Assembly (NCBI RefSeq): GCF_014189455.1
Contig: NZ_CP050296.1
Location: forward strand, 1,903,501-1,967,500
Length of the DNA stretch: 64,000 bases
Direction: 5' to 3'
Source: Mesorhizobium huakuii
GTDB taxonomy: Bacteria > Pseudomonadota > Alphaproteobacteria > Rhizobiales > Rhizobiaceae
Shown here piece by piece: positions 32,097-33,221 of the stretch. Position 1 is the first letter of the stretch. Every line of letters begins with the position of its first letter. The position numbers were made by a program, and so were the translations under genes. The notes beneath the pieces are model-generated. The model searched no databases, was not told the DNA's origin, and saw nothing but the letters and a program-made list of their open reading frames with translations.

Positions 32097-32119
32097 CTTT
32101 GTAACTTGCTGCGTGCCGA

Positions 32120-32262
32120 CTCTGCTATTGATGCATGTGCGGTGGCGGGCGGAAGGCCGAACCATCTTTGGGCCCTTGAGCCCGCGGGAGAGCTTGGGTC
32201 TTCGTCCGCCGTTCCATCGAACCCGAACAGTCGCCTGGGCCGCAAGCGAAGCCCGATTAGGC
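32120..32262 (+). ncRNA. Predicted IS110 bridge RNA
   Basis: Hairpin 1: stem GGCGGA (32148-32153) with TCCGCC (32205-32210), inner stem GGGC/GCCC (32170-32173, 32180-32183). The internal loop holds CCATCT (32162-32167), like target top strand CCAC-CT, and GGGAGAG (32186-32192), the complement of CT-CTCCC. Hairpin 2: stem ATCG/CGAT (32216-32219, 32254-32257). It holds ACAGTCGC (32227-32234), identical to the right element end, and GCGAAG (32246-32251), pairing with the left end CT-TTGT using G-U wobbles. This matches the published target-loop and donor-loop plan. RNA ends are approximate. Confidence 0.6.
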
Positions 32263-32276
32263 AAGGATGGGACAGG

Positions 32277-33206
32277 ATGGAAATCATCGTTGGCATCGAC
32301 GTTTCGAAAGACCGCCTCGACGTGCATATCGCGCCGTCCGCAGAGGCTTTCTGGCTGGGCAATGACCACGCCGGGGTAGAGGACCTGGTTCGACGGCTGG
32401 CAGCCCTTTCCCCTACCGCTATCGGGCTGGAGGCAACTGGGGGCTTCGAGAATCTGGCGGTGGCTGCTTTGGCTGGCGCTGGCTTGGCGATTGTCGTGGT
32501 CAATCCAGCGCAAGTGCGCGCCTATGCCAATGCACTTGGCAAGCGGGCCAAGACCGATCCTCTCGATGCGGCTGTCATCGCGGCCTTCGTCGCCGCGACC
32601 AAGCCGGAATTGCGGCCTTTGCGTGATGCCGAGACCAGAACCTTGGCCGATCTCGTCGCCCGCCGGCGTCAGATTGTGCAGATGATAGTGGCCGAGGAGA
32701 ACCGTGCGCGCACTGTCACCGCCAAACAGGCGCACAAAAGCATCAAGCGCCTGCTCGCCGCACTACGGCGCGAACTGGCAAGCCTTGATGCCGACATGGA
32801 TGATCATATCCGCAAGTCTCCAGTCTGGCGGGTCAGGGAAAAGCTGCTTTCCTCGGTGCCAGGCATCGGCCCCGTCGTTGCCCGTACCATGATCGCTGAA
32901 ATGCCAGAGCTCGGCAGTCTCGACCGCCGCCAGATCGCCGCGCTCGCCGGCCTCGCGCCATGGACAAGGCAGTCCGGCAAATGGCGGGGCAAGAGCTTCA
33001 TTGGCGGCGGCAGGAGTCGCGTACGCGCCGTCCTGTTCATGGCTGCCCTCGTCGCCATACGTCACAACCCTGTGCTCAAAGCCTTCCGTGACCGCCTCGT
33101 CGAAGCTGGCAAACCCAAGATCGTCGCCGTCGTCGCCACAATGCGAAAGCTGCTCACAATACTCAACGCAATGATCCGGGACCAAAAACCATGGCAAGCC
33201 GCTTGA
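32277..33206 (+). CDS. IS110-family transposase (DEDD recombinase)
   Basis: 309 aa. The N-terminal RuvC-like domain has Asp in [13 protein letters not shown], Glu in [12 protein letters not shown] and the D-x-x-D in [14 protein letters not shown]. The C-terminal Tnp domain has [20 protein letters not shown] and the region [15 protein letters not shown] with the conserved serine. It starts at 32277 behind CAGG; upstream in-frame sequence is the noncoding left end. Intact, so the element may be mobile. Confidence 0.93.
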
Positions 33207-33221
33207 CTGCCAAGACAGTCG

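Follow-up and report, generated by a model that had tools for sequence, protein, structure and literature searches.

An IS110-group element with a predicted IS621-type bridge RNA in a palindromic repeat of Mesorhizobium huakuii

Described IS110 systems and the element in M. huakuii

That IS110 elements insert under RNA guidance, that their guides covary with the targets, that redirection occurs in nature, and that such elements are inserted in rhizobial REP sequences is already in print (PMC11208160; PMC11187229; PMC1525189; statements on these papers and on PMC11208158 refer throughout to the parts covered here). Solved relatives of the transposase studied here are IS621 (8wt6, E 8.2e-33, phmmer 118 bits) and ISCro4 (9t56, E 2.8e-35, 126 bits). 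Like these two systems, the element described below combines a DEDD and serine recombinase with a long left end for a predicted two-loop RNA, in which the left target guide (LTG), right target guide (RTG), left donor guide (LDG), and right donor guide (RDG) follow each other in this order (PMC11208160; PMC11208158). It also shares with them a CT donor core followed by TG and an LDG of 8 nt, and IS621 too enters repetitive palindromes. It differs from both in its distant protein sequence, in a target core that reads TT instead of CT, and in the other letters of its target and guides. Moreover, its RTG pairing spans 7 nt, whereas this length is an engineered extension from 4 bp in IS621. Another rhizobial IS110 family member, ISRm19 of Sinorhizobium meliloti, likewise resides inside palindromic intergenic repeats (4/4 copies in REP; PMC1525189), a likeness based on description and not on alignment; no guide RNA is mentioned in the covered parts of that paper, which dates from 2006. 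In ISEc21 and ISMch6, which are of the IS110 type with a seekRNA, the upstream non-coding region yields a guide RNA, as predicted here, but the targets are IS3-family transposase genes and not palindromic repeats. The same source reports a natural guide change accompanied by a target change; it gives one natural case of IS110 redirection (PMC11187229). A search of the open-access literature found no paper on the particular element treated here. It is a well-supported, ordinary member of a known RNA-guided family, and the new part is small: the naturally unequal cores suggest that insertion products keep the letters of the top strand.

The window, i.e. the whole stretch of 64,000 nucleotides that was analysed, contains an intact element of 1124 bp flanked by a cupin gene and an M24 peptidase gene. 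The element, its recombinase, and its target and donor sequences are located as follows.

32100..33223, plus strand: complete IS110 element, TGTAAC...GACAGTCGCT; junctions set by the orthologous empty sites of both genomic copies
32277..33206, plus strand: IS110 recombinase, 309 aa and stop codon; PF01548 and PF02371, NF033542
32091..32099, plus strand: left target (LT) GGCCACC-TT with the target core TT at 32098-32099; based on 16 relatives, G007 among them, with the empty site CCACCTTCTCCC
33224..33229, plus strand: right target CTCCCC, the first half of a palindrome that extends rightward; from the empty sites
33215..33223, plus strand: left donor ACAGTCG and donor core CT; from the donor-guide scan and the coordinates

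The host genome (G000, 8.45 Mb) carries a second copy at C1:4891881-4893005 whose sequence is identical across the element. A near-identical element is found in M. carmichaelinearum; protein identity is 100% as printed, and a tree branch of 0.0033 indicates that the two are not fully identical. The recombinase has the feature that marks membership in the group, an N-terminal DEDD RuvC-like domain and a C-terminal Tnp domain with the catalytic serine, and in an alignment read by eye the catalytic residues D11/E60/D102/D105/S241 of IS621 (numbered as in PMC11208158) face identical residues. The non-coding ends measure 177 nt on the left and 17 nt past the stop codon on the right, and a downstream non-coding region of the IS1111 type is absent.

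This is very probably an active or recently active IS110-group element with an IS621-type two-loop bridge RNA that targets the palindromic repeat. The recombinase would excise the element as a circle. Transcription of the bridge RNA in the left end would start from a promoter that probably arises where the ends are joined (GACAGTCG-CT^TGTAAC). Of the two loops of this RNA, the first would pair with both strands of the palindromic target, CCACC-TT^CTCCCC, and the second with the joined element ends. The recombinase would then place the circle precisely at the boundary between the TT core and CTCCCC, with no target duplication. The sequences themselves show the element with its ends and exact empty sites, the covariation within the RNA structure and between target guides and flanks, and the match of the LDG, and in several relatives of the RDG, to the donor; that the RNA is transcribed and bound, that the circle forms, and that catalysis follows is what we infer.

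The ends of both copies were read by comparison with orthologous sites that lack the element. G007, a genome of the same genus with the same flanks as the window, reads GGCCACCTTCTCCCCGTGGGGGAG at the empty window site (L103) and carries the copy-2 insertion as well. Among the 29 relatives printed for the window site, 16 read CCACCTTCTCCC (CCACCTT^CTCCC), while the remaining 13 differ there. The copy-2 site is exactly CCACCTTCTCCCC (the full CCACCTT^CTCCCC) in 15 of 18 empty relatives; two others, with CCACCTTCTC, differ slightly from it, the last has CCACCTTCCCCC, and two further loci printed for this site are filled and stand outside the 18. The left junction is CCACCTT^TGTAAC and the right junction GACAGTCGCT^CTCCCC, and according to the empty sites of both copies insertion was exact and without target duplication. 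Because these sites read CCACCTT^CTCCCC, CT is the core of the donor alone, and that of the target is TT.

An earlier note on this DNA had recognized an IS110 element that splits a palindromic repeat and a two-loop non-coding left end (given as 178 bp), which was borne out, but had placed the element at 32097-33221 with CT at both junctions. In that reading target and donor would have the same CT core, the donor would be CT-TTGTAAC, and the RDG would be GCGAAG. The left junction in the window can indeed be read as CCAC-CT-TTGTAAC, and CCACCTCTCCCC occurs 62 times in the genome. The empty sites of both copies speak against it: CCACCTCTCCCC was found at the insertion point in 0/47 orthologous empty-site relatives (29 for the window site and 18 for the copy-2 site), and since the sites read TT before the insertion point, the CT of the left junction had been set one base too far left. 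A T immediately 5' of TGTAA is present in 61/61 left ends, which came from a search that did not require this T, and is preceded by C in 43 and by T in 18 of them; these left ends are loci, some of which are one place seen twice. GCGAAG itself (32246-32251) belongs to a loop that varies in length and sequence, and its partner CT-TTGT is not the donor, which is CT-TGTAAC. The pairing of a donor CT-TTGTAAC with a CT target, for which the common CCACCTCTCCCC and the match of GCGAAG or GCAAAG to CTTTG would speak, is ruled out by the empty sites and the left-end alignment, and a common CT core together with GCGAAG as RDG is very improbable as a whole. With the corrected ends the predicted circle junction is CGCTTGTAAC, compared with CGCTTTGTAAC in the earlier version. 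Ends read from a single copy can generally be off by one if the core is only partly shared.

A close relative is represented in G003 by right-end fragments at the ends of contigs (L205 and L206); these are followed by CTGGCC and not by CTCCCC, and their guides are off the contig. Another member of this mostly alphaproteobacterial family lies on a low-coverage contig of 3.7 kb that is labelled Microbacteriaceae in an actinobacterial assembly (L022), and represents contamination or transfer. At the far end of the window (61663-64000, minus strand), a tRNA, 5S rRNA, and partial 23S rRNA mark the end of an rRNA operon.

The predicted bridge RNA and its target guides

The left end contains the following predicted RNA features.

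32100..32276, plus strand: left end of 177 nt that encodes the predicted bridge RNA; from covariance model R1 and structure counts
32144..32210, plus strand: stem of the target-binding loop, arms 32144-32153 and 32201-32210; 9 of 10 pairs with pair-preserving double changes in 37 sequences
32211..32273, plus strand: stem of the donor-binding loop, arms 32211-32218 and 32266-32273; 89.5% of its cells are paired, and double changes occur in 2 of 8 pairs
32160..32168, plus strand: LTG AACCAUCUU, predicted to pair with the bottom strand of GGCCACC-TT through 6 Watson-Crick pairs and 1 wobble pair of 9
32186..32192, plus strand: RTG GGGAGAG, perfect complement of CT-CTCCC; from the guide-flank comparison

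As a single sequence, the left end of the window does not fold better than shuffles (z +0.53), and one copy alone would therefore not prove a structured RNA. The evidence for such an RNA comes from covariation across relatives and not from the single fold. In 37 distinct aligned left ends, 93.2% of the cells of the two-loop structure are paired, compared with 88.5% after shuffling and 34-55% when the structure is slid along the alignment. Double changes affect 13 of 28 pairs and 62 cells, against 6.7 and 14.5 in shuffles; the target-loop stem has the most of this support and the donor-loop stem less. The covariance model R1 matches window 32100-32279 at 186.4 bits, with the window left end among its 37 training rows. 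Of 28 loci outside training with 35-46% protein identity, which represent only about 7 element types, it recovers the RNA in 20 (E below 1e-4) and misses the other 8. Within the window's own genome R1 matches the two copies only, and Rfam at gathering and relaxed thresholds gave no match to a bridge-RNA family.

The 3' arm of the donor loop (GATGGGAC, window 32266-32276) overlaps the expected ribosome-binding region in front of the transposase ATG, and folding could affect translation. In Rhizobium sp. Leaf262 (L047) the part of the left end with the RTG and LDG looks tandemly duplicated in the portion that was read.

The four loop words quoted in the earlier note are all present, and GGGAGAG is, as it had stated, the perfect complement of CT-CTCCC. 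Guides and flanks were compared among relatives at 56 right and 60 left flanks, after loci with an unreadable left end, N, or a too short flank had been dropped; unique pairs were counted, because several loci are one place seen twice (e.g. L001, L100, L130). Each RTG agrees with its own right flank at 4.64 of 5 non-core positions, compared with 2.18 after permutation (0/20000; 14 unique pairs from the 56 loci). With one pair for each of the 11 guide types the values are 4.91 of 5 and 2.50 for shuffled pairs (0/20000). On a tree of 36 transposases, from which proteins that were short, duplicate, or had an internal stop had been dropped, a minimum of 14 changes is required for the RTG and of 15 for the flank. 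Permutations leave relatedness in, a problem that the tree count and the one-per-type test lessen. Examples of joint change are GAATGAG with CATTC, GTTTGAG with CAAAC, and ACCTCAG with GAGGT.

For the LTG, agreement at one fixed register is 4.24/7, compared with 3.29 after permutation (0/20000; 40 unique pairs from 60 loci), and in a scan over the 40 pairs this register forms the peak, the others reaching at most 3.26. The register CCAU-CU on CCAC-CT proposed earlier thus gives way to AACCAUC-UU on CCACC-TT, one base further right. Consistently, AACCAUCUU of the window scores 6.5/9 on GGCCACC-TT and 3.5 on CCAC-CT in the same register, although it pairs just 7 of the 9 target bases. Five of the 40 unique pairs are weak (at most 3.5/9) at the fixed register. 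Three of these (L133, L153, L161) reach 6-7.5/9 in a neighboring register, and linker length may therefore vary among relatives; the other two (L027, L015) reach only 5/9. Apart from these five, relatives with other loops sit at matching other targets, and the condition that the earlier note would have taken as contrary evidence, the same loops at unrelated targets, did not tell against the reading.

Recognition of the palindrome by the recombinase protein alone, with the left end as a regulatory leader and the loop-target match as coincidence or shared ancestry, is very improbable: the agreement could partly reflect descent, as 33 of the 56 right-flank loci, including those from Mesorhizobium, share the guide GGGAGAG and the flank CTCCC, and the left end of the window alone folds no better than shuffles, but the joint change of guide and flank over 11 guide types with at least 14 changes on the transposase tree already contradicts it. 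Strong support for an IS621-type bridge RNA that is programmed for the local repeat comes from the covariation of guides and flanks, the covariation within the RNA structure, and the exact empty sites. With its many joint changes of guide and target, this rhizobial branch of bridge-RNA elements provides useful data on natural reprogramming.

Donor guides and the circle junction

Three further features concern the joined ends of the circle.

32227..32234, plus strand: LDG ACAGTCGC, 8/8 to the left half of the donor; best left-end place in 13/13 family representatives
32261..32265, plus strand: RDG GCAAG, predicted to pair with donor CT-TGT with a terminal wobble; from invariance, position, and the IS621 scheme
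33203..33208, plus strand: TTGACT, candidate -35 box, separated by 17 bp from TAACTT on the other side of the circle junction

The LDG, already pointed out in the earlier note, matches all 8 letters of the left donor half in 11 of the 13 family representatives and 7 of 8 in L031 and L162. It tracks the donor through the forms ACAGTCG, ACGGTTG, ACAGTTG, ATGGTTG, and ACGGATA. These results are from a scan without guide anchors, in which the donor ends of distant families were chosen by eye and not by empty sites; a separate permutation of donor guides is partly circular, its anchors having been picked after the sequences had been viewed, and the scan was relied on instead.

The RDG is most likely GCAAG, immediately in front of the 3' arm of the donor loop. 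This assignment follows from the invariance of CAAGG (32262-32266) in 37/37 left ends, the corresponding position, and the published IS621 scheme, where the core and the two donor bases after it are paired by bases 162-165 (PMC11208158); the pairing in the window does not fix it uniquely. The expected place pairs at 6 or 7 of 7 positions in 7 of the 13 representatives. It is the sole best place in four of them, with 7/7 matches each (L081, L144, L162, L163), and tied best in another four (the window, with three places at an equal 4.5/7, and L092, L085, L090), while it is not the best place in the remaining five (L012, L031, L079, L146, L164). According to the handshake scheme of PMC11208158, position 7 of the donor (G) would be a possible partner of C32193 after the RTG, and position 7 of the target (C) one of the G after GCAAG.

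With respect to the putative promoter at the circle junction, which is postulated by analogy with IS621 (PMC11208160; PMC11208158), 91 of 105 right ends carry TTGAC at a distance of 15 nt (87) or 16 nt (4) from the end. As the motif overlaps the stop codon, its conservation is weak evidence for a promoter.

In IS110 relatives at 35-41% identity (L092-L096, L098 with its left end before TGTGTG, L144, L145, L147, and L152) the core appears to be CC and not CT. These relatives have GG at the core-pairing end of the RDG and, as read by eye, GG in the RTG and CC in the LTG. In IS621 and related orthologues the core T is almost invariant (PMC11208158).

Forms of the repeat and unequal cores

Palindromic repeats are found at window 33224-33290 and at 62 places in G000. 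We take this repeat to be RIME-like. It comes in two forms in the genome, the common CCACCTCTCCCC and the rare CCACCTTCTCCCC, with 62 free sites of the former and 5 free plus 2 occupied sites of the latter. Both known copies of the element are thus in the rarer form (2/7 versus 0/62; chance 0.009), which with n=2 is only suggestive of a preference for CCACCTTCTCCCC. The wider motifs CACCTTCTCCCC and CACCTCTCCCC have 19 and 79 free places, respectively.

Both copies combine a CT donor core with a TT target core, and CT is not shared by the two. The published core rule is not strict, as the T is nearly invariant, the first base is less conserved, and TT supported recombination (PMC11208158); a TT target core therefore does not exclude membership in the IS621 type. 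Left guides that end in UU, which may tolerate either core, occur in 11 unique pairs at TT and in 10 at CT targets, and those that end in CU in none at TT and 8 at CT (Fisher 0.012 over unique pairs); 11 further pairs with other guide letters are all at CT. One guide, GAGCAUCUU (in G077 and G001), is found at both cores, namely at GGCACC-TT (L199, L201, and, as GGGCACC-TT, L197 and L198) and at GGCATC-CT (L200).

Both ends are available for 47 distinct insertions. TT stands at the left junction in 12 of these, each of which has CG-CT on the right, and the donor letters CGCT were found at the left junction in 0/47. TT was likewise found in none of 90 right ends (88 CT and 2 CC). These counts omit relatives with less than 52% identity and six loci without the right-end motif; two of the six, L026 and L135, read ACAATCGCT on the right and TT on the left. 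In IS621 the bottom strand is cut opposite positions 5-6, which leaves positions 6-9 as a mixed duplex, if the starred numbering of PMC11208158 is read in this way. The same paper leaves mismatch repair open and calls bottom-strand exchange with excision and repair possible. Each TT insertion carries unequal letters that label the strands in this last step of the reaction, which PMC11208158 does not settle. Tentatively, as a reading that could well prove wrong, natural target and donor cores can differ, and positions 6-9, between the top and bottom cuts, might be finished in favor of the top strand.

Two right ends, in L055 (which shares its flanks with L134) and in L054, read ACAGTCCCT (CC-CT) and differ from their own left donor guide only at position 7. 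In L055/L134 and L054 this position has the letter of the target, while their own left donor guide is still CGC. These right ends may represent the other outcome of repair, i.e. the footprint of a mixed duplex, or a point mutation.
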